From Pedobacter riviphilus (lineage in GTDB: Bacteria; Bacteroidota; Bacteroidia; Sphingobacteriales; Sphingobacteriaceae), in NCBI RefSeq assembly GCF_014692875.1, contig NZ_CP061171.1, positions 434,001-498,000 on the forward strand: a DNA stretch of 64,000 nucleotides, written 5' to 3'. This document shows, in pieces, positions 16,402-57,867 of the stretch; position 1 is the first letter of the stretch; each line of letters starts with the position of its first letter. Both the position numbers and the translations under genes were made by a program. The notes below the pieces were generated by a model. It did no database searches and was not told where the DNA came from. It saw nothing but the letters and a program-made list of their open reading frames with translations.

Positions 16402-16462
16402 GTGGTTTTAGCAATATAAATAAATCATACTTTCCAAGTTTGGTATTATAAATTGTTGGAAA

Positions 16463-16476
16463 GTGATCTCCCTCAC
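16463..16476 (+). promoter_or_regulatory. candidate CRP/FNR-type site 1 before the 593-residue gene
   Basis: GTGATCTCCCTCAC is a GTGA-N6-TCAC palindrome, close to the CRP consensus half-sites. It lies about 110 bases before the start at 16583 and 8 bases before a second site of the same class. Two hits within 36 bases are unlikely by chance in so short a region, but binding is untested. Confidence 0.45.
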
Positions 16477-16484
16477 TTTTCGTT

Positions 16485-16498
16485 TTGACTGGCATCAT
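16485..16498 (+). promoter_or_regulatory. candidate CRP/FNR-type site 2 before the 593-residue gene
   Basis: TTGACTGGCATCAT fits the FNR/FixK layout TTGAY-N4-RTCAA with a single mismatch at the last base. It is centred about 91 bases upstream of the start at 16583. A TGGCTTTT/AAAAGCCA hairpin follows at 16543-16562, immediately before the gene. Confidence 0.5.
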
Positions 16499-16582
16499 GG
16501 TCTGACTGGCTCAACTGCAATAGTTTTGCTGTCGAAACCATTTGGCTTTTGTATAAAAGCCAGATTTACATAACGAAATACA

Positions 16583-18364
16583 ATGCCACATTCATTCCAT
16601 ATCCCCGTGTTGGGCCTCGGCTATTCCATTGATACGCCACTAAAAGTTGCCAGGTACGGTATTTCATCCGTGTTATCCGTTGTTGATGACGAACTCATCG
16701 AACGCATGCGTGCCTATCACTCGCAGAAACGCTCCATTTCCTTTCATGCCATACCTAAAGGGGAGGCCGATAGCCGCAGTAAACGCATCACAGCTGACCT
16801 GGATTTTTTGCAGGAAACCATAACCTCAGATTTTAAAACCCTGAAACAACAGGATTTTGCCATTGGTAATGATATTTGCCGTTATTTTGAACTATTGCCC
16901 GATACTGCTAAATTAAAGCATGGTTATGACCTGATGTTGCAATATCCTGAAGGTGAAACCAAGCAGGCTTTCCAGGCGCTTTTAAAAAATGCGATGCAGA
17001 TGGGCGCTATTGATGTGAATATCATGGCCAAGGTAGATAAAATGAATTATGTTGATGGCGAATATTCGGGTGATACCAATACCGATGCATTAGCCGCACT
17101 CCGTGGTTTTGCCGAAAGTAAACTAAATGCCTCTGTTGTACTCTCTGCTGGTATGAACCCGAAATTGTACAGCTATATGGAAAATTTTGAAGACTTTTTT
17201 CCTGATGAAAATGGCAAGCTGAAAAAGAAAATCATCCTAAAAGTAAGCGATTTCAGGTCGGCACTGATCCAGGCTAAATTTTTGGCGAAAAAGGGTTTAT
17301 GGGTTTCAGAATTCAGGATTGAGTCGGGCTTAAACTGTGGTGGCCATGCATTTGCAACAGAAGGATATTTACTGGGGCCGATTTTGGAAGAATTTAAGCT
17401 CAAAAAAAACGATATGCTTGCTGAGCTTTTTAAAATGTACCAATCTGCAGTAGAGCAAAAGGGAATCCAAATAGAAAAACGGCCCAAACAGAGAATCAGT
17501 GTTCAGGGTGGGATTGGTACCGCCGCGGAACACAATTTCCTCCTTAAACATTATAATCTCGATGCCACAGGCTGGGGAAGCCCATTTCTATTGGTACCAG
17601 AAGTAACTAATGTTGATGCCGAAACATTGGCGCAATTGGCCAGCTCAACAGAAAGCGATTTTTATCTAAGCGGGGCTTCTCCGCTGGGTATTCAGTTTAA
17701 TAATTTTAAAAACAGCAGTATAGAAAAGCAACGAGTTGAAAGAATTGAAAAGGGCAGGCCAGGAAGCCCGTGTACCAAAAAATACCTTTGCAACAATACC
17801 GAATTTACTGAGCAAGCCATTTGTACGGCATCCCGCGAATATCAGCACTTAAAAATCAAAAGCCTTAAAACTGCTGGCCTATCAGCAGATGAATACCAAA
17901 AACAGTTTAATCTGGTTACTGAAAAAGTTTGCCTTTGTGAGGGCTTGTGCGCCGCTACCTATCTGAAATATGACATGGCTAAACCAAAAGAAAGTACCGC
18001 AGTAGCCATTTGCCCAGGGCCAAACCTGGCCTATTTTTCTGATGTATATTCTTTCGATGAAATGGTTGGCCATATTTATGGAAAAATTAACCTGCTGGCG
18101 CAAGTGGAAAGGCCACATGTTTTTATCAAAGAACTTAACCTCTATATCGATTATCTGCAGAATGATATTAAACAGCAGCTGCAAAATTTCAGCGATAAAA
18201 AAATAAAACAGTTAAACGGATTCAAACTACAGTTGGCCGAAGGGATTAACTACTACAAAAAACTATTCAGTGAAGTTGCCGATCAGGCATCGGGCGAGTT
18301 AAAGGGATTATACGAACAGTTGGCAAAGTCGAAAGACAAACTGGACGGATTGATTGTTGAATAA
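16583..18364 (+). CDS. conserved-looking protein of unknown function with Cys motifs
   Basis: I do not recognise this 593-residue soluble protein as a named family. Residues 240-370 contain LNCGGHAFATEGYLLGPI, then VQGGIGTAAEHNFLLKHY and GWGSPFLLVPEVTNV. These resemble the glycine-rich phosphate loops of flavin TIM-barrel enzymes such as glutamate-synthase or nitronate-monooxygenase relatives; this is inference from pattern only. Further on come clustered cysteines: PCTKKYLC, CLCEGLC and AICPGPN, which could hold a metal or Fe-S cluster. The last 80 residues look like a coiled coil. There is no signal peptide or membrane segment. It is preceded by two CRP/FNR-like sites and followed 47 bases later by an oxygen-sensor-type kinase, so a low-oxygen redox role is plausible but unproven. 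Confidence 0.75.
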   Translation: MPHSFHIPVLGLGYSIDTPLKVARYGISSVLSVVDDELIERMRAYHSQKRSISFHAIPKGEADSRSKRITADLDFLQETITSDFKTLKQQDFAIGNDICRYFELLPDTAKLKHGYDLMLQYPEGETKQAFQALLKNAMQMGAIDVNIMAKVDKMNYVDGEYSGDTNTDALAALRGFAESKLNASVVLSAGMNPKLYSYMENFEDFFPDENGKLKKKIILKVSDFRSALIQAKFLAKKGLWVSEFRIESGLNCGGHAFATEGYLLGPILEEFKLKKNDMLAELFKMYQSAVEQKGIQIEKRPKQRISVQGGIGTAAEHNFLLKHYNLDATGWGSPFLLVPEVTNVDAETLAQLASSTESDFYLSGASPLGIQFNNFKNSSIEKQRVERIEKGRPGSPCTKKYLCNNTEFTEQAICTASREYQHLKIKSLKTAGLSADEYQKQFNLVTEKVCLCEGLCAATYLKYDMAKPKESTAVAICPGPNLAYFSDVYSFDEMVGHIYGKINLLAQVERPHVFIKELNLYIDYLQNDIKQQLQNFSDKKIKQLNGFKLQLAEGINYYKKLFSEVADQASGELKGLYEQLAKSKDKLDGLIVE

Positions 18365-18411: not shown

Positions 18412-19611
18412 ATGTGTTACATGGATAGGTCGAAATTTTTAGATGCAATTATTGAAAATGCCATTGATGGGATTATTACCATTGATGATAAGGGACTCAT
18501 AGAACATTTAAACCCCGCTGCACTTGAGCTTTTTGGTTATGGAAGGGATGAACTGGTAGGCAAAAATGTATCGGTTTTGATGCCAGAGCCTGATCATTCA
18601 CGTCATGATGGCTACTTATCCAGATATGAACATACCGGGCAGAAACACATTATCGGAACCGGGAGAGAAGTTTCCGGTAAACGTAAGGATGGCTCGGTTT
18701 TTCCCTTTAGGCTTGGGGTAAGCGAAATAAAATTTAGCGACCGTAAAATTTATACTGGTTTTATCCACGATCTGAGTAAAGAAAAGGCCAATGAAGAGCA
18801 GATCAAAAGCTACACCGAAAAATTAGAGGTAAAGATTAAGGAACGTACACACGATCTGGTAAAGCTGGTGTCTGAGCTCGAAATGGCCAAAGAAAATATG
18901 CAGGCGCTTTTTCAGAAAGAGAAGGAACTCAATCAGCTCAAAACAAGGTTTGTGTCTATGGCCTCGCATGAGTTTAGAACACCACTCAGTTCGATACAAT
19001 TATCGGCTTCTTTGATCGATAAATATACCTCCAAACATGATGTGGCCAGCGTAGAAAAACATACACTGAAAATCAAAAATTCGATTAATAACCTTACCAC
19101 AATATTAAACGATTTCCTCTCGCTCGAAAAACTCGAGGCCGGAAAAGTAGAAGCGTCCGCTCAGTCTTTCAATATCATCAGCTTTGCTGAAGAAATAGCT
19201 GAAGAAATGCAGATGATGACCAAACAGAACCAGCATATTATTTACGAACATACAGGTACAACCGCCGAAGTTTACCTCGATCCGAACCTGTTGAAAAACT
19301 GTGTGATCAATCTGATTTCCAATTCGATAAAATACTCCGGTGCAGATACTTTGATCCAGTTCAATTCCATTTTAAAAAATGATGAGCTTATTTTAGAGGT
19401 GAAAGATAATGGTATTGGCATTCCAAAAGTCGACCAGCACAATCTGTTCGAACCATTTTTCAGGGCGCATAATACGGGCGATATCCCTGGCACAGGTTTA
19501 GGTCTGAACATTGTAAAAAGATATGTGGGTCTGATGAATGGTACAGTAGCCTGTCAGAGCGAACAAAATTCAGGTACAGTTTTTACGCTCAGCTTTGCAC
19601 TTGGTAAATAA
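18412..19611 (+). CDS. FixL-like PAS sensor histidine kinase, probable heme oxygen sensor
   Basis: A 399-residue soluble kinase. The PAS domain (about 8-120) carries a segment very like FixL: NVSVLMPEPDHSRHDGYLSRY, then HIIGTGREVSGKRKDGSVFPF. In FixL the His of RHDSY is the proximal heme ligand and the Arg of GIGR contacts bound O2; the equivalents here are His65 and Arg85, and the second conserved His of HIIG is His79. A coiled linker (125-175) leads to the phosphoacceptor MASHEFRTPLSSI (His186). The ATPase domain has NLISNSIKYSG, VKDNGIGIP and GTGLGLNIVKRY. There are no membrane segments. It is followed 24 bases later by the receiver-CRP gene, presumably its partner. Heme binding is inferred. 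MDRSKF (18421) is an alternative start. Confidence 0.88.
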   Translation: MCYMDRSKFLDAIIENAIDGIITIDDKGLIEHLNPAALELFGYGRDELVGKNVSVLMPEPDHSRHDGYLSRYEHTGQKHIIGTGREVSGKRKDGSVFPFRLGVSEIKFSDRKIYTGFIHDLSKEKANEEQIKSYTEKLEVKIKERTHDLVKLVSELEMAKENMQALFQKEKELNQLKTRFVSMASHEFRTPLSSIQLSASLIDKYTSKHDVASVEKHTLKIKNSINNLTTILNDFLSLEKLEAGKVEASAQSFNIISFAEEIAEEMQMMTKQNQHIIYEHTGTTAEVYLDPNLLKNCVINLISNSIKYSGADTLIQFNSILKNDELILEVKDNGIGIPKVDQHNLFEPFFRAHNTGDIPGTGLGLNIVKRYVGLMNGTVACQSEQNSGTVFTLSFALGK

Positions 19612-19635
19612 TTTACAATTAAACACGCAATCTCC

Positions 19636-20667
19636 ATGAACAAGAAAGTTTTGATTATTGAAGATAATGACGACATCAGGGAAAGTACAGCTGAGGTGCT
19701 GGATCTGGCCGGTTATGAAACTTTTACCGCGAAACATGGTAAGTTAGGGGTAGAAATGGCTTTGAACCATTTGCCTGATGTAATCCTCTGTGATATCATG
19801 ATGCCAGAACTGGATGGTTACGGGGTTTTGTACCTACTGAACAAAAACCAGAAAACGGCAAATATTCCTTTTATTTTCATTACCGCAAAAACCGAGCGGG
19901 CAGACATGCGAAAAGGTATGGAAATGGGTGCCGATGATTACCTCACCAAACCGTTTGATGATATAGAACTCTTTAAGGCCATAGAAAGCAGGTTTAAAAA
20001 GAAGCAACAATCAGCTGGCTTTAATGCCCCATCGGGCAATAGCGAAACGGTAATGGACGAGCTCCGTAAAAAGGGCAAATTAAGGCCAATTGCCAACAAG
20101 CAGATTATTTATGTGGAAGGGGATGAACCTACCCATCTTTATTATGTAGTTAAGGGGCAGGTAAAAACGTACAAACGTTTTAAGGATGGTAGGGAGCTTT
20201 CGTCGAGCTTGTATCATGACGGCGATTTTTTTGGATATGAGAGTTTGTGTAATGGCGAAGTATACACAGACAATGCAGCAACCTTAACCGAATCAGACAT
20301 TATACAGATCCCCAAAGCCGATTTTATGGAGTACCTGCTCAACCACCAGGCCGTATCCAAAACATTTATCACTTTGCTATCAGGAAATGTACGCGATAAA
20401 GGAAAGCAAATGCTTCAATTGGCCTATTCATCGGTACGAAAACGTGTAGCAGAAGCATTGCTACAAGTAGCTGTTAAATTTGGTGATGGTGTTGAAGATA
20501 GCTGTACCATCCGGATTTCCCGCGATGATCTTGCTGCATTGGTAGGTACAGCCAGCGAAACCGTAAGCCGAATGCTTGCTGATTTTAAAGATGAAAAACT
20601 GATTGATAAAACAGGCAATGCCATAAATATCCGCTCAATCGAAAAACTCAAAAACATTAAACAGTAA
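19636..20667 (+). CDS. receiver-CRP/FNR fusion transcription regulator
   Basis: This 343-residue regulator combines a response-regulator receiver (1-120) with a CRP-type effector half. The receiver has the acidic pocket IIEDNDD, phosphoacceptor Asp53 (ILCDIMMPELDG), the switch Thr in FITAKT and Lys in LTKPF. A cyclic-nucleotide-binding-like barrel (about 140-250: GDEPTHLYYVVKGQVKTYK, GDFFGYESLCNG) and a winged helix (SRDDLAALVGTASETVSRMLADFKDE) follow. It lacks the N-terminal Cys cluster of FNR, so oxygen control should come from phosphorylation by the adjacent FixL-like kinase. In rhizobia FixJ and FixK are separate proteins; here the roles appear fused. A strong terminator follows. Confidence 0.9.
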   Translation: MNKKVLIIEDNDDIRESTAEVLDLAGYETFTAKHGKLGVEMALNHLPDVILCDIMMPELDGYGVLYLLNKNQKTANIPFIFITAKTERADMRKGMEMGADDYLTKPFDDIELFKAIESRFKKKQQSAGFNAPSGNSETVMDELRKKGKLRPIANKQIIYVEGDEPTHLYYVVKGQVKTYKRFKDGRELSSSLYHDGDFFGYESLCNGEVYTDNAATLTESDIIQIPKADFMEYLLNHQAVSKTFITLLSGNVRDKGKQMLQLAYSSVRKRVAEALLQVAVKFGDGVEDSCTIRISRDDLAALVGTASETVSRMLADFKDEKLIDKTGNAINIRSIEKLKNIKQ

Positions 20668-22566: not shown

Positions 22567-22844
22567 GTGAAGAAATGTAATTAATTTATTGATCATTGGC
22601 TCCCTGGTAATTAGCCAATGGTTCATCGTCATATTCTTCATTGCGGGCTTGGAAGCGTGCGCTAGCCTGTGGCGATTTATCGGTAAAGCAATCTCATTAG
22701 GCGATTTACTTGTTCGTTGTTTAAATCGCTTAATTGCCGCTAAACGCCAAATTAATAAATGTAATAAAAATCATTTTTTTCTCTAAGCATCCTCACCTGT
22801 AGCACCTGCCCAGGACCATAGTTTTGTATATATAAATTCTGTAT

Positions 22845-23273
22845 ATGAAAGCTATAGCTTACAACATCAAACCCGATGAAAAGGAATGGTTGGTACTGGC
22901 CAATTATAAAAAACACGACATTACCATAATTGCCAATAGTTTAACTATTGATACGCTTTCATTCGCAACCGGAAAGGAAGCGTTGCTGGTTTTTAACAAC
23001 GATGAACTAAACGAGGCGATGATTCTGGGGCTAAAAGCCCTGGGTATAAAATACATCGCAACCTCATCATTCCAAACAGATCATCTTGATTTAAAAGCTG
23101 CAGGTTCTGCAGGGATCAAAGTGGCAAACGTTCCTTTGGCATCCGGCGGTGCCGACGCTAAACAGCGGATGGAACAGGTGATCAAAAACCTTGATCAATG
23201 GGCTGCGGGTAAATGTGTAGGTAGCGCGTGCTGCTGTCAAAATGAGTGTTCTAAAGTAAAAGTGATGAAATAA
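22845..23273 (+). CDS. D-lactate-dehydrogenase-like N-terminal domain with Cys-rich tail
   Basis: The first about 105 of 142 residues resemble the N-terminal catalytic half of D-2-hydroxyacid dehydrogenases of the LdhA type (MKAIAYNIKPDEKEWL, HDITIIANSLTIDTLSFATGKEALLVF, LGIKYIATSSFQTDHLDLKAAGSAGIKVANVP). The NAD-binding Rossmann half is absent. In its place is a short tail ending CVGSACCCQNECSKVK, five cysteines that could bind a metal or act as a redox site. It therefore cannot be a normal dehydrogenase. The stop overlaps the hemN start by one base, implying translational coupling and a role tied to heme or cbb3 assembly; function otherwise unknown. Confidence 0.8.
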   Translation: MKAIAYNIKPDEKEWLVLANYKKHDITIIANSLTIDTLSFATGKEALLVFNNDELNEAMILGLKALGIKYIATSSFQTDHLDLKAAGSAGIKVANVPLASGGADAKQRMEQVIKNLDQWAAGKCVGSACCCQNECSKVKVMK

Positions 23274-24619
23274 TGGAGGCATCTGCACTACTTAAAAAGT
23301 ACAATGTCCCCACACCCAGATATACCAGCTATCCGACTGTGCCTTACTGGGACATCGAAAAATTCAATGCAAATGGCTGGTTGGCCAATGTTGCGAATAT
23401 CTACGAAAGCCGTAAGGATGAGGGGATCAGTCTTTATATCCACCTTCCATTTTGCGAGAGCCTGTGTACTTACTGTGCCTGCAATACCCGTATTACCAAA
23501 AACCATGGTGTAGAGATACCATATATCAAGGCCGTACTTGCTGAATGGAAAATGTATGTGGAAGTTCTCAGGGAGAAACCCAAACTAAAAGAACTGCACC
23601 TTGGTGGCGGAACACCAACTTTTTTCAGCGCAGAGAACCTGGGCTTACTGATCAATGGCATTCTGCAAAATTCAAGTTTGGCTCCTGATGCAGAATTTTC
23701 TTTTGAGGCACATCCAGCCAATACCACCAGTGCACACTTAACCACTCTGTACAGCCTTGGTTTCAAAAGATTAAGCCTGGGAATCCAGGATTTCGATCCT
23801 AAAGTGCAGTTCCTGATCAATCGTTTTCAAACGCCTCAACAGGTAGCTGAGATTACCACAAAAGCAAGAGAAATCGGTTATACCTCTGTTAATTTTGATT
23901 TGATCTACGGCCTTCCGGGACAAACAATTCCGGGCTTAGCTGATACCATAAGAGCGGTAATCGATATGAAGCCAAACCGCATTGCTTTTTACAGTTATGC
24001 CCATGTGCCCTGGTTAAAACCAGGCCAAAGACATTATACAGAAAAAGATCTTCCCCTGGGCGACGAAAAATTTGCGCTTTACCAATTGGGTAGACAATTG
24101 CTTGATGCCGCAGGATATAAAGATGTGGGAATGGACCATTTTGCACTGAACAGCGATTCTTTGTTCTAGGCAATGACTGAACAGAAGCTGCACCGCAATT
24201 TTATGGGCTACACCAATAAACATACCCATTTACTTATCGGCCTTGGCGTATCTTCTATCAGCGATAGCTGGACAGCTTTTGCACAAAATCCGAAAACGGT
24301 AGAAGATTATCTCGATAAAATCGAACGTGGTTTACTACCTGTGGAAAAAGGCCATTTCCTTACAGGTGAAGACATCGGGGTAAGGAAACATATTCTTAAC
24401 CTCATGTGCAGAGAAAATACAATGTACAACGAAGGTATTCCAGAACAAGTATATGGTAGGCTGTTACCCTTATTACGCGATAAGCTGATCTGGGTAACCG
24501 AAAAAGAAATTAGGATTACCACGAAAGGGAAATCTTTTTTGAGAAACGTGTGCATGGCTTTCGATGAGAAACTATGGCTTAAGCAGCCCAAAACCCAAAT
24601 GTTCAGTTCATCAATTTAA
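23273..24619 (+). pseudogene. hemN: oxygen-independent coproporphyrinogen III oxidase, in-frame TAG at codon 299
   Basis: This radical-SAM enzyme makes protoporphyrinogen IX without oxygen, for heme synthesis under low O2. The cluster motif is CESLCTYCAC (Cys61, Cys65, Cys68), followed by HLGGGTPTFF, RLSLGIQDFD and FDLIYGLPGQT. The frame is continuous from 23273 to 24619 (448 codons) except for one TAG at 24167-24169. It lies between DHFALNSDSLF and AMTEQKLHRNFMGYTNKHTHLLIGLG, where HemN proteins normally read on, probably with Gln (CAG). Both halves are well conserved in pattern, so this is a recent nonsense change or a C-to-T miscall. A truncated product would lack the C-terminal HemN domain. 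Confidence 0.88.
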
Positions 24620-24632
24620 GTACAGGTTAAAA

Positions 24633-27017
24633 ATGGAAGATCAAAATAAAACCACAACACAGGCCCTTTGCTATCATTGTGGAGAAGATCTGCCCGCGAT
24701 AAAATACCAGGCAGGAGATAAAGATTTTTGCTGCGCAGGCTGCATGGCTGTTTTCAAGATCCTCTCAGAGAATAACCTTTGCAATTACTATGTGTACAAC
24801 AATAATCCGGGCCAACAGTTTAAAAATGAGCTTCATTTAGAATATCTGGACGAGCCTAAAATTATTGATCAATTGCTCGATTACAAACATGAAAGTTCGA
24901 GCATCATTACATTTTACATTCCGGCCATTCACTGCAGTTCATGTATCTGGTTGCTAGAACACCTCTATAAAATCAACCCCGCTATATTCAGCTCACGGAT
25001 TGATTTCCTTAAAAAACAGGTTACCATAAGTTTCAATCACGACGAAATTTCGTTAAGGCAGTTGGTGGAAACTTTAGGCCAGATCGGTTATGAACCTTTG
25101 ATCAGCCTGCAGGATGTAGTACAGGAACACAGCAGTTCGGTAGATAAAGCTTTGGTGTTAAAAATAGCCGTTGCCGGATTTTTAATGGGCAATGTTATGC
25201 TCTTTAGCTTTCCGGAATATTTTGGTTTATCGGGTTTCGAGAAACAATTTCAATCGCTTTTTGGCTGGCTAAACCTTACGTTCGCTATTCCTGCAGCTTT
25301 TTATTGTGGCCGCGACTATTTTACCTCAGCAATAACAAGCCTTAAACATAGGCACATTAACCTCGATACCCCTTTAGCATTAATTATTGCGGTACTTTTC
25401 TTGCGCACTGCTTTCGAAATCCTTTTCAGTACAGGCCCGGGTTTTGCCGATACCTTAACAGGATTGGTGTTTTTGCTTTTAATGGGCAAATGGCTTAAAC
25501 AGCGCACCTACCATCACATTTCTTTTGATCGCGATTATCGGTCCTATTTCCCGATTGCGGTAACTACCCTGCAAAACGGTAAAGAAAAGCCTGTATCCAT
25601 AAACGAAATCAAGATCGGCGACCGGCTGTGGATCAGGAACGGTGAGCTGGTTCCTGCAGATGCAATTTTAATGAAAGGTGAGGCCTGGATGGATATGAGT
25701 TTTGTTACCGGCGAATCAGACCCTGTACATAAAGTTCTGGGCGAAATTATTTATGCAGGTGGCAGGCAAACCAGCGAAGCGATAGAACTTGAAGTGATCA
25801 AACCTGTTTCACAAAGTTATTTAACCGGTTTATGGAACAACGATAATTATAAGAACAATACCGAAAAACAGAACTTTAATGATACTGTAGCCAAATACTT
25901 TAGTCTGGGTGTTTTCCTGATTGCATTTGCCGCTACTGGGTATTGGTTGCTTCAGAACGATAGCCACAAAGCATGGGCGGCATTTACCGCCGTAATTATT
26001 GTGGCCTGTCCCTGCGTACTGGCCCTAAGTACCCCATTTACACTATCTGCAATTTTATCGGTTTTTGATAAGAAAGGATTTTATGTAAAAAATACAGATG
26101 CCGTTGAAGAACTTAGCAAATGCGATACCTTGATTTTCGATAAAACAGGCACCCTAACCAGCAATGAACATGCAGAGATCGGTTTTAGTGGAACGATATC
26201 AGGCGAGGAAAAGATTATTGTTGGTTCCCTCTTGCGAAATTCTATCCATCCTTTGAGCAGGCATATCTTAAAAACTTTAAATGTTGATCGGTTTTATTCA
26301 ATCAGCGATTATAAAGAGGTGGTAGGAAAAGGTTTGACCGCTAAAATAAATAACCACAGTATTTATGCCGGACATCTTTCTATGCTGCCTATGGCAGTAA
26401 AGTCTGCTAGCGAAAGCGGCGTGCATATTGTGATTGACCATGTTTATAAAGGATGTTTTGATATCAAACAGCAGTGGCGCTCAGGATTAGCGCAGTTGAT
26501 CTTAAAACTTTCGAAATTCAAGCTGCTGGTTTTATCAGGCGATACCGATAAAGACCGTTGGATGTTGGATACAATATTCACCGAAAAAACAACCATCAGG
26601 TTTCGCCAAAGCCCTCACCAAAAGCTCGATGCAGTTTTAAAGCTTCAGCAGGGTGGGAATAAAGTAATGATGCTGGGCGATGGGTTAAACGATGCCGGAG
26701 CCCTAAAACAAAGTAATTTTGGAATCGCATTAACGGATAACATCAATAATTTTACGCCCGGTTGTGATGCCATTCTCAAAGGCAGCGCCTTAAATTATCT
26801 GCCAGATTTTATCCAGTTAAGTAAGGATGGGCTGAAGATCATTAAAACAAGTTTCGCTATAGCCATCGCGTATAACTGTATTGGTATTTATTTTGCCGTT
26901 CAGGGTACACTTTATCCTTTGGTGGCCGCAGTACTGATGCCGATTAGTACGGTTACCATTATCTCCTTTACCACCATGGCAACCAGATGGTTTGCCCGTA
27001 AAAATAAACTGATATGA
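24633..27017 (+). CDS. ccoI: copper-exporting-type P1B ATPase for cbb3 assembly (CcoI/FixI)
   Basis: This is a 794-residue membrane pump that supplies copper for the cbb3 oxidase. The N-terminus has a Cys-rich metal-binding domain (Cys13, Cys16, Cys33, Cys34, Cys37: CYHCGEDLP, FCCAGCMAVF), then a heavy-metal-associated domain with Cys101 and Cys104 (HCSSCIWLLEHL). The core shows SFVTGESDPV, the transport motif ACPCVLALS, the phosphorylation motif DKTGTLT and hinge GDGLNDAGALKQ. I place the start at MEDQNK (24633): the frame is open 23 codons further, but that part overlaps the hemN 3' end and is not protein-like. The stop overlaps the ccoS start by 4 bases (ATGA). Confidence 0.93.
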   Translation: MEDQNKTTTQALCYHCGEDLPAIKYQAGDKDFCCAGCMAVFKILSENNLCNYYVYNNNPGQQFKNELHLEYLDEPKIIDQLLDYKHESSSIITFYIPAIHCSSCIWLLEHLYKINPAIFSSRIDFLKKQVTISFNHDEISLRQLVETLGQIGYEPLISLQDVVQEHSSSVDKALVLKIAVAGFLMGNVMLFSFPEYFGLSGFEKQFQSLFGWLNLTFAIPAAFYCGRDYFTSAITSLKHRHINLDTPLALIIAVLFLRTAFEILFSTGPGFADTLTGLVFLLLMGKWLKQRTYHHISFDRDYRSYFPIAVTTLQNGKEKPVSINEIKIGDRLWIRNGELVPADAILMKGEAWMDMSFVTGESDPVHKVLGEIIYAGGRQTSEAIELEVIKPVSQSYLTGLWNNDNYKNNTEKQNFNDTVAKYFSLGVFLIAFAATGYWLLQNDSHKAWAAFTAVIIVACPCVLALSTPFTLSAILSVFDKKGFYVKNTDAVEELSKCDTLIFDKTGTLTSNEHAEIGFSGTISGEEKIIVGSLLRNSIHPLSRHILKTLNVDRFYSISDYKEVVGKGLTAKINNHSIYAGHLSMLPMAVKSASESGVHIVIDHVYKGCFDIKQQWRSGLAQLILKLSKFKLLVLSGDTDKDRWMLDTIFTEKTTIRFRQSPHQKLDAVLKLQQGGNKVMMLGDGLNDAGALKQSNFGIALTDNINNFTPGCDAILKGSALNYLPDFIQLSKDGLKIIKTSFAIAIAYNCIGIYFAVQGTLYPLVAAVLMPISTVTIISFTTMATRWFARKNKLI

Positions 27018-27193
27018 ACATTCTTTACTTTTTGGTTGGCTGCAGCGTTTTAATGGCACTCATTTTTTTGGCAGCGTTTTTCTGGGCCTATAAAACCGGT
27101 CAGAATGATGATGTACATACTCCAGGTATCCGTATGCTCTTCGATGATGAAGCTGCTGCCGAAAAAAGTGAAGAAGATCACTTTTCTAGTTAA
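27014..27193 (+). CDS. ccoS: cbb3-type oxidase assembly protein CcoS
   Basis: A 59-residue protein starting MNILYFLVGCSVLMALIFL with one membrane helix (about residues 4-25) and an acidic cytoplasmic tail (GIRMLFDDEAAAEKSEED). The position after the copper ATPase, the overlap with its stop codon, the size and the FFWAYKTGQNDD motif after the helix all fit CcoS, which is needed for copper/heme insertion into cbb3 oxidase. A CRP-like palindrome lies within its last codons, upstream of ccoNO. Confidence 0.85.
   Translation: MNILYFLVGCSVLMALIFLAAFFWAYKTGQNDDVHTPGIRMLFDDEAAAEKSEEDHFSS
27168..27181 (+). promoter_or_regulatory. candidate CRP/FNR-type site upstream of ccoNO
   Basis: GTGAAGAAGATCAC is a GTGA-N6-TCAC palindrome, and the arms extend to AAAGTGA/TCACTTT (27165-27184). 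It overlaps the 3' end of ccoS, 85-98 bases before the ccoNO start. Its match to the sites at 16463 and 57843 suggests one regulator, but an origin in codon usage cannot be excluded. Confidence 0.42.
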
Positions 27194-27265
27194 CCGTTAT
27201 CACCCTTTATCCGCCTACTGCCAGATACCTTTGGCATATAAAACATACAAAATTCTGTTTCTATT

Positions 27266-29407
27266 ATGCAGTTAGAAAAATTTACTTACGATAACAAGAT
27301 TGTCAGGAACTTTGGTATTGCCACCCTGGTTTGGGGAATAATCGGGATGACTGTTGGTTTGCTTGTAGCTATGCAGCTCTTCAAACCCGCATTGAACATG
27401 GGCAGTCAGTACACTACATTTGGCCGCATCAGGCCGCTGCACACCAATGCCGTAATTTTCGCCTTTGTGGGCAATGCCATTTTTATGGGTGTTTATTATT
27501 CCCTTCAGCGCTTGTTAAAAGCACGGATGTTTAGTGATGTGCTGAGCAAAATCCATTTTTGGGGCTGGCAGCTGATCATTTTATCGGCAGTGATCACGCT
27601 ACCGCTTGGCTTTACCACTTCGCACGAATATGCCGAACTCGAATGGCCAATAGATATCGCCATCACCATCATATGGGTGGTTTTTGGCGTAAACATGTTC
27701 GGTACCATTTTCAAAAGAAGAGAACGTCATTTATATGTGGCCATCTGGTTTTACATTGCCACATTTGTTACCATAGCAGTATTGCACATTGTAAACTCTT
27801 TCGAACTGCCCATTTCTTTTATGAAAAGCTATTACGTATATGCCGGTGTACAGGATGCATTGGTACAATGGTGGTACGGGCATAACGCGGTGGCATTTTT
27901 TCTAACCACACCTTATCTGGGCATGATGTATTATTTCTTGCCAAAGATGGCCGGAAGACCCGTTTACTCTTATAAATTAAGTATCCTGCATTTTTGGTCG
28001 CTCATTTTTATTTACATCTGGGCAGGACCTCACCATTTACTTTATACTTCACTACCGGGTTGGGCACAATCATTAGGTGTTGCATTTTCGATTATGCTGA
28101 TTGCACCAAGCTGGGGCGGTATGATTAATGGCTTATTAACTTTGCGCGGCGCCTGGGATAAAGTAAGGGAAGATGTGACGCTTAAATTTATGGTGGTTGC
28201 CCTTACAGCTTATGGTATGGCCACCTTCGAAGGTCCGTTATTATCATTAAAACAGATTAACGGTGTTGCCCATTTTACCGATTGGATTGTGGCTCACGTG
28301 CATGTTGGCGCTTTAGGTTGGAATGGATTTTTAACCTTCGGTGTGTTGTACTGGCTAATCCCCCGTATTTACAAAACAGAATTATATTCTAAAAAGCTAG
28401 CCGGTTTCCATTTTTGGATAGGTACGTTAGGCATCCTTTTTTATGCCGTGCCGATGTATTGGGCAGGTTTTACGCAGGGGCTGATGTGGAAAGAATTTAC
28501 CCCCGAAGGTTTACTGAAATACCCTAATTTTTTAGCGACAACGCTACAGATAATCCCGATGCATATTTTACGTTCGATCGGAGGCACATTGTATTTAACA
28601 GGGGTAATTGTAATGACGTATAACCTGGCTAAAACCATGTTAGGGGCTAAATTGCTTGCCAATGAACCTGCAGAGGCCATGCCATTAAGCAAAGTTGTTA
28701 TCGAAACTTCTTCGGCGGATAAAGCCTGGCATAGGGTTCTGGAACGTAAGCCAATGAAATTCATGGTGCTATCGCTCATCATCATCCTAATTGGGGGCAT
28801 GGTAGAAATGATGCCCACTTTTACCATTCAATCTAACGTGCCAACCATTGCCAGTGTAAAACCATACTCGGCACTCGAACTTCAGGGCAGGGATTTATAC
28901 ATCAGAGAAGGCTGCGTAAACTGCCATTCGCAAACGGTGCGACCTTTCCGCTCAGAAACTGAACGATATGGAGAGTATAGTAAAGCCGGAGAGTTTGTTT
29001 ACGATCACCCGTTTTTATGGGGGAGTAAACGAACAGGGCCCGATCTTCATCGCGTAGGAGGGAAATATTCTGATGCCTGGCATTACAATCACCTGGTCGA
29101 TCCGACTTCAATGTCGCCGGGAAGCATTATGCCGCCATATCCGTGGCTGATTGAGCAGAAACTGGATATTACCACCACAGCCAGTAAGATCAAAGCCATG
29201 CAGATACTGGGGGTACCTTATCCCGAAGGTTATGATAAACGCGCTAACGATGATTTAAAAGTTCAGGCCGAAAAGATTGCACTCGACCTAAAACAGAATA
29301 ACATCAAGGTTAAAAGCGACAGGGAAATAGTAGCCATTATTGCTTACCTGCAACGTTTGGGTACCGATATCAAAGCAAATAAAGAAACCATTCCTTCAAA
29401 TCAATAA
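27266..29407 (+). CDS. ccoNO: cytochrome cbb3 oxidase, fused catalytic subunit I and cytochrome c subunit II (CcoNO)
   Basis: A 713-residue fusion. Residues 1 to about 480 are subunit CcoN: twelve-helix heme-copper oxidase with the heme and CuB histidines seen in RPLHTNAVIF, WWYGHNAVAFF, AGPHHLLYTSLPGW and WIVAHVHVGALGWNG. After a linker (about 480-510) comes CcoO: a membrane anchor (MVLSLIIILIGGMVEMMPTF) and a periplasmic cytochrome with heme motif CVNCH at 550-554 and a downstream Met ligand region (MSPGSIMPPYPW). It reduces O2 to water with high affinity and pumps protons. Fusion of CcoN and CcoO is the usual Bacteroidota arrangement. The 72-base gap after ccoS could hold its own promoter. 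Confidence 0.96.
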   Translation: MQLEKFTYDNKIVRNFGIATLVWGIIGMTVGLLVAMQLFKPALNMGSQYTTFGRIRPLHTNAVIFAFVGNAIFMGVYYSLQRLLKARMFSDVLSKIHFWGWQLIILSAVITLPLGFTTSHEYAELEWPIDIAITIIWVVFGVNMFGTIFKRRERHLYVAIWFYIATFVTIAVLHIVNSFELPISFMKSYYVYAGVQDALVQWWYGHNAVAFFLTTPYLGMMYYFLPKMAGRPVYSYKLSILHFWSLIFIYIWAGPHHLLYTSLPGWAQSLGVAFSIMLIAPSWGGMINGLLTLRGAWDKVREDVTLKFMVVALTAYGMATFEGPLLSLKQINGVAHFTDWIVAHVHVGALGWNGFLTFGVLYWLIPRIYKTELYSKKLAGFHFWIGTLGILFYAVPMYWAGFTQGLMWKEFTPEGLLKYPNFLATTLQIIPMHILRSIGGTLYLTGVIVMTYNLAKTMLGAKLLANEPAEAMPLSKVVIETSSADKAWHRVLERKPMKFMVLSLIIILIGGMVEMMPTFTIQSNVPTIASVKPYSALELQGRDLYIREGCVNCHSQTVRPFRSETERYGEYSKAGEFVYDHPFLWGSKRTGPDLHRVGGKYSDAWHYNHLVDPTSMSPGSIMPPYPWLIEQKLDITTTASKIKAMQILGVPYPEGYDKRANDDLKVQAEKIALDLKQNNIKVKSDREIVAIIAYLQRLGTDIKANKETIPSNQ

Positions 29408-29410
29408 AAT

Positions 29411-29593
29411 ATGTTTAACCAGATAAAAGATTTAGCCGGTGGTGAATTATACCTCATCACCTCACTGCTCATGTTCATGGTGTTTTTTGTAATCGTGGGT
29501 ATTTACCTGCTCAAACTAAATAAAAAACATATCGAAGTAATGAGCCAGCTTCCTATTCAAGACAATCAACCTATTGCATATGAAGAAGATTAA
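29411..29593 (+). CDS. ccoQ: cbb3 oxidase small subunit CcoQ-like
   Basis: A 60-residue protein with one membrane helix (YLITSLLMFMVFFVIVGIYLLKLNKK) and a short polar tail. It starts three bases after ccoNO and overlaps the following ccoP by 14 bases, which identifies it by position and form. CcoQ stabilises the CcoP association in other bacteria. Sequence conservation in this family is low, so the name rests on context. Confidence 0.85.
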   Translation: MFNQIKDLAGGELYLITSLLMFMVFFVIVGIYLLKLNKKHIEVMSQLPIQDNQPIAYEED

Positions 29594-30548
29594 ACTATTG
29601 TTATTATGCCTGTTCATCTCAATTACAGCCTTTGCTGCGAATGAGAAAGCCGCAGAAACCTTAACACCTGCTCAGGCAGGCTTGGGGCTAAACCAGTCTG
29701 AAATACTGATTATAATCCTCCTGGTTTTTGCAGTTGTGCTTCTTTTTGTTTCAGTAACCCTGTTAAATGCATTCAAGGTAATGTATCAGGAACAGTTAAA
29801 CCCTAAGCCGTACACCAAACCGGTAAAAGAACTGGTTTTGGATTACGATACCTGGTTAAAACAAAAACCGGTTAAACCCTCAATCTGGACAAAACTTTTA
29901 AGCTTAAGGCCCATTGAAGAAGAAAAAGACCTGGTCATCGATCATGCTTACGATGGCATTAAAGAACTGAACAACCCTGTGCCAGCCTGGTTTAACTTCC
30001 TCTTTTTCGGAACCATGATTTTCGCGGCAGCCTATCTTTTTTATTACCACATTGGTGGTTATGGAGATCTGCAGGATACAGAATATGAAAAAGAAATGGC
30101 CAAAGCGAAGATAGAAAAAGCAGCCTACCTCGAAAAATCGGCCAATACCATTGATGAGAATTCGGTTAAGGTTGATAATACGCCAATGGTACTGGCTGAG
30201 GGCAAAACTGTTTTTACAACTAACTGTGTGGTTTGCCATGGCGATAAAGGCCAGGGCATAATAGGGCCAAATTTAACCGATGATTATTGGTTGCATGGTG
30301 GAGGCATAAACAATGTTTTCAAAACCATAAAATATGGGGTACCCGAAAAAGGTATGATCAGTTGGGAGAAAAATTTAAATCCAAAACAGATCAGTGCTGT
30401 TGCCAATTTTATCTTATCGCTAAAAGGAAGTAATCCTGCAGGAGCCAAAGCACCACAGGGTGAGAAATATGAAGCGAAAGATTTAAAAGGCAATGAGATG
30501 AAAACACCAACCGACAGTGTGAACCAAACCGATGTTACCAAAAAATAA
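29580..30548 (+). CDS. ccoP: cytochrome cbb3 oxidase diheme-type subunit, mono-heme form (CcoP)
   Basis: This 322-residue membrane-anchored cytochrome c passes electrons to the oxidase. A signal-like N-terminus (MKKIKLLLLCLFISITAFA) is followed by a membrane helix (about 42-62), then a short cytoplasmic stretch, then the CcoP fold signature ELNNPVPAWFNFLFFGTMIFAAAYLFYYH. Only one heme-c site is present (CVVCH, 216-220, with GPNLTDDYWLHGG and a distal Met in EKGMISW), whereas proteobacterial CcoP has two. I start at ATG 29580 rather than the upstream TTG. It overlaps ccoQ by 14 bases and ccoG by 17 bases, a tightly coupled operon. Confidence 0.93.
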   Translation: MKKIKLLLLCLFISITAFAANEKAAETLTPAQAGLGLNQSEILIIILLVFAVVLLFVSVTLLNAFKVMYQEQLNPKPYTKPVKELVLDYDTWLKQKPVKPSIWTKLLSLRPIEEEKDLVIDHAYDGIKELNNPVPAWFNFLFFGTMIFAAAYLFYYHIGGYGDLQDTEYEKEMAKAKIEKAAYLEKSANTIDENSVKVDNTPMVLAEGKTVFTTNCVVCHGDKGQGIIGPNLTDDYWLHGGGINNVFKTIKYGVPEKGMISWEKNLNPKQISAVANFILSLKGSNPAGAKAPQGEKYEAKDLKGNEMKTPTDSVNQTDVTKK

Positions 30549-31923
30549 AAAAGAAAATAAAGGCAGGGGCAGAAATTTTATCTATCCTAAAAAGCCATCT
30601 GGTAGGCTGTATACCTACCGGAAATGGGTAAGTTATGTGCTGCTGTTATTTTTGTTTTCCTGTCCGTTTTTAAAATTTAAGGGAGAACAACTGGTACTCC
30701 TCAATTTTATAGAAAGAAAATTTGTATTCTTCGGATTGATTTTTACCCCGCAGGATTTTTACCTTTTCGCGCTCGCGATGCTTATTTTTATCATGTTCAT
30801 TGTATGTTTTACAGTAATTTTGGGTAGGCTATGGTGCGGATGGGCTTGCCCGCAAACAATCTTTATGGAAATGGTTTTCCGTAGAATCGAATACTGGATT
30901 GAAGGCGATGCCAATAAACAAAAGAAACTAGACGAAGCAGGCTGGACCGCCGGGAAAATATTCAAAAAAATAAGCAAACATTTTATTTTTCTGGTGATTT
31001 CTTTTGCCATTGCAAATACCTTTTTGGCTTATATGATTGGGTCGGCAGTACTGTATAAAATTATTACTGAACCAATTGCTGGTCATGTATCGGGCTTTGT
31101 ATCCATTTGGCTATTTACATTTATATTCTATGGGGTATTTACCTATGTACGCGAAGTGGTGTGTACGGTAATCTGTCCGTATGGCAGGCTGCAAGGGGTG
31201 CTGTTGGATAATCAAAGTCTGGTGGTCGCCTACGATTTTAACAGGGGCGAGCCGCGGGGCCATCTTCAAAAACAGGATGCAGCTTTAAAAACGGGAGATT
31301 GTATTGATTGTGGGCTTTGCGTACAGGTTTGCCCAACAGGAATTGATATCCGCGAAGGTACGCAGCTCGAGTGTGTAAACTGTACCGCCTGTATCGATTC
31401 ATGCAACGAGGTAATGCTTAAAATAAACAAGCCCAAAAACCTGATCGGTTTCTTCAATCAGGATTTTATTAACGAACGTAAACCCTATAAAATTGGCTTA
31501 AAATCTTACGGTTACGCAGCGGTACTGTTTGTGGTAATGGTAGTTTTTTCTTCACTGATTTATAAAAGAGAAGATATCCAGACCACCGTACTAAGAGCAA
31601 GCGGTACTTTATACCAGAGTAGGGGGGCAGATAAAACGAGCAATCTTTATAATGCAGAGCTGATCAACAAAACCAATAAAGCAGTAAAGTTCAGGTTTAG
31701 GTCGCAAAATGACAGTGATGAAATTGATTTTATCCAAAAAGCTGATGTTTTGCCAAAAGAAGGTTCGGTGCACCTTACTTTCTTTCTGATCAGGAAAAAT
31801 AATGCCATTAAAAAATATAAAACCGATGCCGTTTTCGAAATTATTGCCAACGGCAAAGTTTTAAGCACAGCAACTACAAGTTTTTTCGCGCAGCCGGAAG
31901 GAATTGAATTAGAGAATGATTGA
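30532..31923 (+). CDS. ccoG: cytochrome c oxidase accessory protein CcoG (FixG/RdxA)
   Basis: A 463-residue membrane iron-sulfur protein, linked in other bacteria to copper reduction for cbb3 assembly. It has membrane helices around residues 35-52, 65-90, 145-170 and 330-345. The motif LWCGWACPQTIFMEMVFRRIEYWIEG is characteristic, as are VCTVICPYGRLQG and a 2[4Fe-4S] ferredoxin segment (CIDCGLCVQVCPTG, then CVNCTACIDSC). The C-terminal periplasmic domain (about 350-460) is Ig-like. It starts inside the end of ccoP. The last codons run into a 24-base imperfect direct repeat (31903-31947). Confidence 0.95.
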   Translation: MLPKNKKENKGRGRNFIYPKKPSGRLYTYRKWVSYVLLLFLFSCPFLKFKGEQLVLLNFIERKFVFFGLIFTPQDFYLFALAMLIFIMFIVCFTVILGRLWCGWACPQTIFMEMVFRRIEYWIEGDANKQKKLDEAGWTAGKIFKKISKHFIFLVISFAIANTFLAYMIGSAVLYKIITEPIAGHVSGFVSIWLFTFIFYGVFTYVREVVCTVICPYGRLQGVLLDNQSLVVAYDFNRGEPRGHLQKQDAALKTGDCIDCGLCVQVCPTGIDIREGTQLECVNCTACIDSCNEVMLKINKPKNLIGFFNQDFINERKPYKIGLKSYGYAAVLFVVMVVFSSLIYKREDIQTTVLRASGTLYQSRGADKTSNLYNAELINKTNKAVKFRFRSQNDSDEIDFIQKADVLPKEGSVHLTFFLIRKNNAIKKYKTDAVFEIIANGKVLSTATTSFFAQPEGIELEND

Positions 31924-56501: not shown

Positions 56502-57818
56502 CTAATTAAGTGTAAGTAATTTCTCTGTGTAGTCGACCAAAAACAAGGGGATATTAACTAACCCATCATCTTTCTTCAGATTCTTTAGCGAATATCTTAT
56601 TCGCACTGGCGGTTCATAAAGGCCATTATATATCGAAAGACTTTTACTACGTACATTCTCATCAGATTTCACCTCAACGGGGATAATTTCATTTTTCATC
56701 TGAATAATAAAGTCAACTTCAGCCTGGTTTCCAGAAGTCCAGTATCGAGGTTGCACTTCAAAATTTTTGATTAAGTGCTGTAAGATATAGTTTTCGGTCA
56801 GTGCGCCCTTAAATTCTGTAAATAAACGATTCCCTTCTCTAACAGCTATAGGGTCTAGTAGTGAAAGTCTACGTAACAAACCGACATCAATCAAGTAAAG
56901 TTTAAATGCCGAAAGATCATCATAGGCAGAAATAGGTAATCCTGGCTTGCTTATTTTAAAAACCCTATGCACCAGACCGGCATGCGAAAGCCAAAGTAAG
57001 GCATCTTCATATTCTCTTGAACGTGCACCTGTTCTTACACTCTGGTAAAGAAATTTTTTATTATCCCTTGCCAGTTGTGAAGGTATTGAAGCCCAAAGAT
57101 GATTAATTTTAGGTACATCCTTACTTTCTGCATATTTCGAAAAATCAAGTGCGTATGCATTTACAATATTTTGCAGTACCTGCTGTGTTTTTTCTACATC
57201 ATGTTGTTCCAATAGTGTAACTACCGCTTCGGGCATTCCCCCACAAATAAAAAATTTCTTTAATTTATCCACCAATGGGTTAAAAAAAATGTCAGGTATA
57301 GGCTCCAGTCTATCTATACTCTCTATATAAGCAAAAAGCTGAGGATCATCAGCAGACAGAAATTCAGAAAAACTGATCGGGTTGACCTGTAAAAAATCAA
57401 CTTTCCCGACCGGAAATGAATTGCCTTTTGACATCGCAACCCCAAGTAGTGAACCTGCACTAGCCACCACATATTCAGGCGCGTTCTCATAGAAATACTT
57501 TAAAGTATTCAGTGCTTCATTGCATTCTTGTATCTCGTCAAATATAATTAGTGTTTTCTGCGGTAGTATTGGCAAACCATGGACTAGGGATAGATTTTGT
57601 ACAATGCGCTGTATGTCCTTGGTGTTTTCAAAAAATTGCTTTAGATCAGGCTGTTCCTCAAAATTAAAATACGCAACATTCTCAAATTCGGCGGCACCAA
57701 AATGTTTCAATAGCCATGTTTTACCAACTTGCCTTGCCCCTTGAAGTACCAGTGGTTTACGGTTTGGATCTGTTTTCCAGGATGATAATTTTTTCTGTAC
57801 ACTTCTTTTGATTTGCAT
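56502..57818 (-). CDS. AAA ATPase with DUF4143 domain
   Basis: A 438-residue cytoplasmic protein of the widespread AAA_14/DUF4143 family. Walker A is GARQVGKT (27-34), Walker B LIIFDEIQEC (Asp94, Glu95), and a sensor-like Ser in YVVASAGSLLG follows. The C-terminal DUF4143 half ends with YWTSGNQAEVDFIIQMKNEIIPVEVKSD, a PD-(D/E)xK-like arrangement (E-V-D-F..., E-V-K). The family occurs in variable genome regions and its role is not settled. A perfect 34-bp palindrome lies just before its start, a probable operator. Confidence 0.88.
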   Translation of the reverse strand: MQIKRSVQKKLSSWKTDPNRKPLVLQGARQVGKTWLLKHFGAAEFENVAYFNFEEQPDLKQFFENTKDIQRIVQNLSLVHGLPILPQKTLIIFDEIQECNEALNTLKYFYENAPEYVVASAGSLLGVAMSKGNSFPVGKVDFLQVNPISFSEFLSADDPQLFAYIESIDRLEPIPDIFFNPLVDKLKKFFICGGMPEAVVTLLEQHDVEKTQQVLQNIVNAYALDFSKYAESKDVPKINHLWASIPSQLARDNKKFLYQSVRTGARSREYEDALLWLSHAGLVHRVFKISKPGLPISAYDDLSAFKLYLIDVGLLRRLSLLDPIAVREGNRLFTEFKGALTENYILQHLIKNFEVQPRYWTSGNQAEVDFIIQMKNEIIPVEVKSDENVRSKSLSIYNGLYEPPVRIRYSLKNLKKDDGLVNIPLFLVDYTEKLLTLN

Positions 57819-57833
57819 AATTCACAACTTAAG

Positions 57834-57867
57834 TGCCAATTATGTGATTTTAATCACATAATTGGCA
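57834..57867. promoter_or_regulatory. 34-bp perfect palindrome with a CRP-type core
   Basis: Two perfect 16-base arms (57834-57849 and 57852-57867) flank TT. The centre TGTGATTTTAATCACA (57843-57858) is a perfect TGTGA-N6-TCACA CRP consensus. It lies 16 bases upstream of the ATPase start, so it overlaps the promoter or 5' leader. It could be an operator for a CRP-family or self-encoded regulator, or a strong leader hairpin. Confidence 0.6.

Follow-up and report, generated by a model that had tools for sequence, protein, structure and literature searches.

A FixL-like kinase and a receiver-CRP fusion protein as a probable local low-oxygen switch for cbb3 respiration in Pedobacter riviphilus

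In the 64,000-nucleotide stretch of Pedobacter riviphilus DNA analyzed here (the window; G000:C1:434001-498000, from a genome of one 5.83-Mb contig), the gene for a FixL-like histidine kinase is followed by the gene for a response regulator in which a receiver (REC) domain is joined to a CRP-type DNA-binding half (REC-CRP). An initial annotation had read the two as a condensed FixL-FixJ-FixK pathway. Genes related to cbb3 oxidase lie about 4 to 11 kb downstream of the pair (ccoI at 24564, ccoNO at 27266, and ccoG ending at 31923), and the gene for an orphan protein, P593, lies upstream. The gaps from the P593 stop to the kinase gene (47 nt) and from the kinase gene to the regulator gene (24 nt) are short, and thus the three genes may form one transcript; a TAnnTTT-like string 5' of the kinase gene leaves room for a second start. 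The pair comprises the following features.

18412..19611, + strand: FixL-like soluble PAS-HisKA-HATPase histidine kinase (open reading frame [ORF], Pfam and PDB match; the start may be 18421)
18436..18777, + strand: FixL-type PAS domain, His65 proximal and Arg85 distal (Pfam PAS/PAS_9, PDB match to FixL, conservation in relatives)
19636..20667, + strand: REC-CRP response regulator with receiver (5-117), cNMP fold (152-236), helix-turn-helix (HTH; 269-340), and recognition helix SETVSR (Pfam, alignments)

The kinase is a 399-residue protein with Pfam matches to PAS (9-120), HisKA (177-244), and HATPase_c (290-397), and His186 occupies the phospho-acceptor place. Position 18421 is a possible alternative start, as most relatives align only from about residue 4. 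No hydrophobic stretch resembling a membrane span was found (top 19-residue Kyte-Doolittle mean, 0.85). The best PDB matches of the PAS domain were to Bradyrhizobium japonicum FixL (8js5, E = 8.4e-32; 1dp6, E = 1.7e-31), while heme PAS domains of the DosP type matched at only about 1e-14. The alignment with B. japonicum FixL was free of gaps over ~125 residues and placed His65, His79, and Arg85 at the equivalents of FixL His200, His214, and Arg220. The three heme contacts named in the initial annotation are thus present exactly, and two of them are constrained: among kinases with ≥50% identity taken from named loci (sets that overlap in organism, so that the kinase conservation, 2HADH length, and pair-typing counts contain repeats), the proximal His and the distal Arg were each kept in 58/58. 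The propionate contacts varied (His214, 27/58; Arg206, 33/58), and because the His214 equivalent is so often lost, the argument for heme from His79 is weak. A second alignment gave both His and Arg in 36/36 kinases of at least 54% identity, the window kinase included, and PAS positions 215, 216, 236, and 238 were nearly invariant among relatives. With a PAS domain in FixL register and both the proximal His and the distal Arg in place, the kinase resembles FixL and, judged by its sequence, likely holds heme. Its partner differs from that of FixL: in place of FixJ (REC plus LuxR-type HTH) stands REC plus a CRP half.

The regulator (343 residues; Pfam Response_reg, 5-117; cNMP_binding, 152-236; HTH_Crp_2, 269-340) has every receiver residue needed for phosphorylation (E9, D10, D53, T83, and K105). 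D53 and K105 were present in 41/41 aligned REC-CRP proteins, the window protein included, and T83 was replaced by Ser in two. Its only cysteines, at 52, 205, and 290, do not form an FNR cluster. Domains and alignment therefore confirmed the initial description of a complete receiver joined to a CRP-type half without FNR cysteines. In alignment with chain 3h3u, which we take to be a Mycobacterium tuberculosis CRP-family protein with Glu, Arg, and Ser as cAMP contacts, the phosphate contacts were replaced (Glu by Tyr, Arg by Tyr, and Ser by Asp). With the needed residues absent, a CRP half gated by cAMP or by an iron-sulfur (Fe-S) cluster was rejected. In having a CRP/FNR fold and HTH but no Fe-S cysteines, the regulator resembles FixK (match to FixK2 4i2o, E = 1.8e-11), except that FixK is a stand-alone protein under transcriptional control by FixJ and here a receiver is fused in front; nor is the HTH of the LuxR/NarL type found in FixJ. 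The regulator is thus, by definition, neither FixJ nor FixK, though the proposed system works like FixL-FixJ-FixK. The closest REC-CRP protein among named records was from Pedobacter sp. ISL-64 (97% identity). A second REC-CRP protein is encoded in the same genome (G000:C1:407114-408163; L002); it is 33% identical, has Glu at the phospho-acceptor place, and is possibly a constitutive or decoy form.

The REC-CRP fusion is no one-off. Relatives of all subfamilies (E ≤ 1e-40) were found in 68/101 genomes of the family, spanning 17 of its 25 genera. Across the phylum, where 296 genomes were sampled, 43 had one at E ≤ 1e-60. A recurrent gene order was kinase, regulator, 2HADH (a D-2-hydroxyacid dehydrogenase-like protein), and hemN, with ccoI, ccoNO, ccoP, and ccoG in line, inverted, or elsewhere; hemN or cco genes lay within ~10 kb in 28/40 retrieved fusion places. 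The named loci showed the same order and came from Pedobacter, Sphingobacterium, Mucilaginibacter, Parapedobacter, Daejeonella, Arcticibacter, Chitinophaga, Flavobacterium, Larkinella, Adhaeribacter, and others. A kinase match stood directly upstream of the fusion in 75/80 named loci. When pairs were typed, a FixL-type PAS domain (IIG..R) occurred with an ET(V/I)SR recognition helix in 92 pairs and an xMG-type PAS domain with ..IR helices in 19, without a single crossover (five pairs were untypable and five regulators had no upstream kinase match).

The promoters of ccoNO in relatives shared a layout of AGTGA-N6-TCACT, a half-site 22 bp on, and then a -7 box, TAnnTTT. A de novo count of palindromes found GTGAT-N4-ATCAC in 14/20 loci before ccoNO, compared with 0 for the shuffle, and in 14/32 before 2HADH, compared with 1; it found no comparable conserved motif before ccoI or hemN itself. 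On this result the FixK/FNR anaerobox, TTGAT-N4-ATCAA, was rejected. A GGTAT motif before the REC-CRP gene (19/41) was discounted, as it lies within the end of the kinase coding sequence, and a good site match before the kinase gene was seen in some genomes only (e.g., L058, L059, L065, and L077). For wider counts, 68 distinct ccoNO regions, the window included, were taken from genomes with the fusion, regions that had less than 300 nt of upstream sequence or a ccoNO identity below 70% having been dropped. The best match to GTGATNNNNATCAC reached 9 or 10 of 10 in 39/68 of these regions and in 0/11 regions from genomes with FNR (4/11 of which reached 8), compared with 18/1,360 shuffles that preserved base content only. 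When 56 of the 68 regions, chosen on the palindrome alone, were aligned, two unselected elements emerged: a TCA located 22 bp further (each base at 0.86) and TA..TTT at positions 60 to 66 (fixed letters at 0.84 to 1.00), which we take to be the Bacteroidota -7 box. A scan for TGA-N6-TCA plus the box at fixed spacing found 58/68 regions and 3/3,400 shuffles of the same kind. Without the five regions of another fusion type (L170, L172, L186, L190, and L193), 55/63 regions had the pattern; the outer base was G in 48, C in 4, A in 3, and T, the anaerobox base, in none, and the second TCA was present in 47/55. Assuming a transcription start ~12 nt downstream from the box's first base, we place the centers of the sites near -63.5 and -41.5. 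The same architecture was predicted at three promoters in the window.

16462..16477, + strand: site 1, AGTGATCTCCCTCACT, upstream of P593 (0 mismatches to the full pattern)
16486..16497, + strand: second site, TGA-N6-TCA, of the P593 promoter, offset 22 bp (pattern search)
16521..16528, + strand: -7 box, TAGTTTTG, of the P593 promoter (sequence reading)
22760..22775, + strand: site 1, TGTAATAAAAATCATT, 5' of the 2HADH-hemN operon, weaker (1 mismatch)
22784..22795, + strand: second site of the 2HADH-hemN promoter, with TCA as right half (pattern search)
22819..22826, + strand: -7 box, TAGTTTTG, of the 2HADH-hemN promoter (sequence reading)
27167..27182, + strand: site 1, AGTGAAGAAGATCACT, 5' of ccoNO (0 mismatches)
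27191..27202, + strand: second site of the ccoNO promoter, with TCA as right half (pattern search)
27226..27233, + strand: -7 box, TACCTTTG, of the ccoNO promoter (sequence reading)

In the whole genome, the full pattern with at most one mismatch occurred at these three places alone (5' of ccoNO, the 2HADH-hemN operon, and P593), all within 10.8 kb of sequence that surrounds the pair; the pattern was drawn from ccoNO promoters including that of the window, and the P593 and 2HADH promoters had been seen before the search. Exactly two mismatches gave no place and three gave 10, with six in all for the reversed control at up to three mismatches. The single palindrome with at most one mismatch had 174 places, compared with 102 in the control, and single-site targets may exist elsewhere in the genome. 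At 57844-57857, between one ORF that ends at 57818 and another that ends at 58882, lies a perfect GTGATTTTAATCAC palindrome; it lacks a -7 box in register and was left out of the counts. In 24 further genomes with an ET(V/I)SR fusion, 84 full-pattern matches with at most two mismatches were found, compared with 7 in the control, so that other genera often have more than three targets; 11 genomes without that fusion type had 15 matches (control, 2). Further predicted targets elsewhere include a secreted protein that we take to be YceI-like and a relocated short 2HADH.

The distribution of the fusion was compared with that of a stand-alone regulator of the Fe-S FNR type. Among the 101 family genomes, 73 have ccoNO, and 61 of these carry an ET(V/I)SR fusion (the helix was read in all 61: 37 ETVSR and 24 ETISR). 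In the other 12, the fusion was absent at E ≤ 1e-40 from ten and was of the ESLIR type only in G029 and G058. A stand-alone regulator matching the G004 protein at E ≤ 1e-50 was found in 12/12 of these genomes and in 0/61 of those with ET(V/I)SR; G014 had a weaker match, at 1e-43. Proteins of the G004 type have a set of N-terminal cysteines (CX2CX8C in most) plus later cysteines, with a TATETAIR helix in most. Their genes lie ~3 kb from ccoN in six genomes (G004, G046, G058, G010, G033, and G060), 160 kb away in G029, and on another contig in the remaining five. In the 11 ccoN regions scanned from the 12 genomes (G008 was left out), ATGA-N6-TCAT in register with the -7 box was present in six, as a lone site at 29 nt in four and as a tandem in two, and the outer base was A in 6/6; it was absent from the other five of the 11, the ccoN promoters of genus g11. 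In this family, then, sequence comparison suggests that the pair stands in for Fe-S FNR. A similar exchange, of FixLJ-FixK for FnrN, has been proposed for Caulobacterales, as far as the consulted part of PMC4999443 goes.

A sister fusion with an ESLIR or ETVIR helix was found in Chitinophaga-type bacteria (L166, L170, L172, L175, L184, L185, L186, L190, and L193). The promoter geometry is the one described above but lies further upstream: in the 500 nt before ccoNO, TGA-N6-TCA stood at 51 nt from TAnnTTT in 9/9 of these loci (the start of L195 was cut; the result rests on nine), with an outer base of C in 7/9 and T in 2/9, giving CTGA or TTGA for GTGA. These CTGA-N6-TCAG-like sites keep the tandem geometry and stand before a short upstream ORF. 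With G, C, and A as outer bases in three regulator classes, the outer base goes with the type of recognition helix.

These results point to a local low-oxygen switch for cbb3 respiration, which we consider probable, running from a heme-PAS kinase through REC-CRP to three promoters. From the sequences we infer heme binding, a response to O2, phosphotransfer, and DNA binding by the pair. The kinase would carry heme b on His65, and O2 bound near Arg85 would inhibit it. At low O2, the kinase would autophosphorylate on His186 and pass the phosphoryl group to Asp53 of REC-CRP, which would favor dimerization of the CRP half without cAMP or an Fe-S cluster. Sequence evidence supports the next step, in which REC-CRP would use AGTGA-N6-TCACT centered near -63.5, together with a weaker second site around -41.5 (with the start placed from the -7 box), and activate three units. 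ccoNO with its followers would be one; 2HADH-hemN, another, would provide heme for the oxidase without O2; and activation of P593, with the kinase and regulator genes following, would amount to probable positive autoregulation. One protein would perform the work of FixJ and FixK. The site that tracks the regulator, of the CRP/FNR type, lies directly before ccoNO and 2HADH-hemN, and thus no FixJ or FixK step would be needed in between, which lends support to the initial reading of a condensed pathway. "FixJ plus FixK in one protein" is meant as a description of function.

The neighboring genes are as follows.

16583..18364, + strand: P593, orphan protein with a predicted PfaD/FabX/FabK-like fold (fold prediction, alignment)
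22845..23273, + strand: 2HADH, short, with no NAD domain and a Cys tail (profiles, alignment, AlphaFold)
23273..24619, + strand: hemN, O2-independent coproporphyrinogen III oxidase, with an in-frame TAG (profile search)
24564..27017, + strand: ccoI-like heavy-metal P-type ATPase (P-type ATPase models; conserved place; we presume the gene name from place)
27266..29407, + strand: ccoNO, fused cbb3 oxidase subunits I/II (NF011053, 1314.7; cut-off, 1080)
29574..31923, + strand: ccoP and ccoG (conserved order in relatives; ccoP start uncertain; names presumed from position)

The initial annotation had placed the pair between an anaerobic-type metabolism block and the cbb3 operon; the cbb3 genes are indeed downstream, and the upstream genes (Usp, Zn-ADH, and PNPOx) are suggestive only. 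P593 had no Pfam or NCBIfam match and no PDB sequence match below E = 0.1, with matches at the weakest level only; six cysteines were invariant in 14 aligned sequences, and the modeled fold predicts a flavoprotein-like protein. In 2HADH, a D-lactate dehydrogenase-like N-terminal half is followed by one helix and a Cys tail, the NAD-binding middle being gone. C124, C129, C131, and C135 of the tail were invariant in 12 aligned sequences and missing in at least L058, L059, L074, L075, L157, and L182. In 84 complete loci, 60 had the short form (118 to 162 residues) and 24 an enzyme of 325 to 349 residues, mostly in the same place. An AlphaFold model of the short form was a compact domain (predicted template modeling score, 0.81) in which the first ~100 residues match substrate domains of D-lactate dehydrogenases and the C-terminal part superposes poorly. 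The compared hemN relatives are open to ~440 to 454 codons, save L124, which ends at a contig end.

Several observations weigh against the proposed switch. The strict pattern is missing from 8/63 ccoNO regions, and 7/55 sites of the ET(V/I)SR type have an outer base other than G. No hemN or cco gene is near in 12/40 retrieved fusion places, some of them paralogues, and the window hemN itself is broken by the in-frame TAG at codon 299, either a strain mutation or an assembly error. The 12 FNR genomes belong to four genera, with phylogeny uncontrolled, and so represent few independent events. The idea that the promoter geometry is exclusive to the fusion was rejected: G023 (genus g23) has no fusion yet has three perfect copies, and the FNR genomes G010 and G033 have one copy each with one mismatch. 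The predicted specificity therefore rests on the outer base. In FNR-bearing genomes, the same tandem geometry was also seen before what we take to be a gene for a cytochrome-c-like protein and another for a ferredoxin-like redox subunit (L263 in G033 and L265 in G023). The copies in G023 would suit another CRP/FNR regulator binding the sites while the adjacent pair senses something else, as would the two stand-alone CRP-like proteins and the second REC-CRP protein of the P. riviphilus genome. We regard this as improbable, since the outer base shifts with the helix type over three regulator classes, no G004-type FNR was found in this genome at E ≤ 1e-40, and all three of its sites are beside the pair.

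Other evidence bears on the signal. The kinase scored 168.7 bits against the NCBIfam FixL equivalog, far below the cut-off of 850, the model being named for rhizobial FixL and 485 positions long. A His at the ligand place is present in the xMG-type subfamily too, so that His alone is no proof of heme. Together with the variable propionate contacts and the flavoprotein-like P593 among the targets, this suits a two-component system that acts at these promoters with a PAS domain lacking heme or sensing redox, a flavin, or another ligand in place of O2. Such a system is unlikely, though it is the alternative we take most seriously: no other solved structure comes anywhere near as close to the PAS domain as FixL, the His, the Arg, and the four further positions are nearly invariant, the targets comprise an oxidase for low O2 and a heme enzyme that works without O2, and an Fe-S-type FNR takes the place of the pair in other genomes. 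The genome also holds many kinases and receivers, and the two proteins could be neighbors without being partners; the 24-nt gap, the recurrence of the kinase directly upstream, and the joint switching of PAS and helix types in 111/111 typable pairs make this very hard to credit.

The oxygen switch proposed here was compared with known systems. FixL-FixJ-FixK of rhizobia and Caulobacter, as described in the consulted parts of PMC7888657, PMC4999443, and PMC5234846, shares with it a kinase of the heme-PAS type, a receiver, a CRP/FNR-type DNA-binding half without Fe-S, and cbb3 and hemN as targets. It differs in that the Pedobacter locus has no FixJ and no separate fixK; receiver and CRP half are one protein, with another DNA site and a Bacteroidota promoter type. 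The hFixL-FxkR-FixK system of Rhizobium leguminosarum, on the same partial basis (PMC7888657), likewise starts from a FixL sensor, ends in a CRP-type protein, and controls fixNOQP, with three proteins and two transcription steps where Pedobacter would use two proteins and one step. Fe-S FNR/FnrN shares the promoter geometry, its site standing 29 nt ahead of the -7 box, and in six genomes of sister genera its gene is ~3 kb from ccoN; it senses O2 directly through cysteines in one protein and pairs ATGA with TATETAIR, in contrast to GTGA with SETVSR here. CRP shares the fold and the TGA-N6-TCA core, while here the cAMP phosphate contacts are replaced and a receiver stands in front. In the open-access literature, we found no description of this kinase/REC-CRP pair and no described low-O2 regulator of cbb3 in Bacteroidota; the consulted part of PMC8510549 had nothing relevant to the pair.

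A Pedobacter-like bacterium thus appears to switch on its high-affinity oxidase at low O2 by a two-protein relay, which gives a concrete pathway for cbb3 control in Bacteroidota, down to its genes, its sites, and a minimal predicted regulon. A bolder proposal, which we offer tentatively and with some doubt, is that Bacteroidota built, independently of rhizobia, a one-step FixL-to-REC-CRP oxygen pathway that replaces Fe-S FNR for cbb3. Receiver phosphorylation would join two CRP dimers side by side on sites exactly 22 bp (two helical turns) apart, a cooperativity gated by phosphorylation and present in neither FixK nor FNR, and sister fusions with another PAS type and a CTGA site would act alike in Chitinophaga-type bacteria. 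The family offers a natural experiment, in which the same oxidase and promoter geometry are driven by either an Fe-S sensor or a heme-type kinase, and the way the outer base follows the recognition helix across three regulator classes can be tested directly. If the proposed pathway is true, the split between FixJ and FixK would be unnecessary for FixL control of cbb3.
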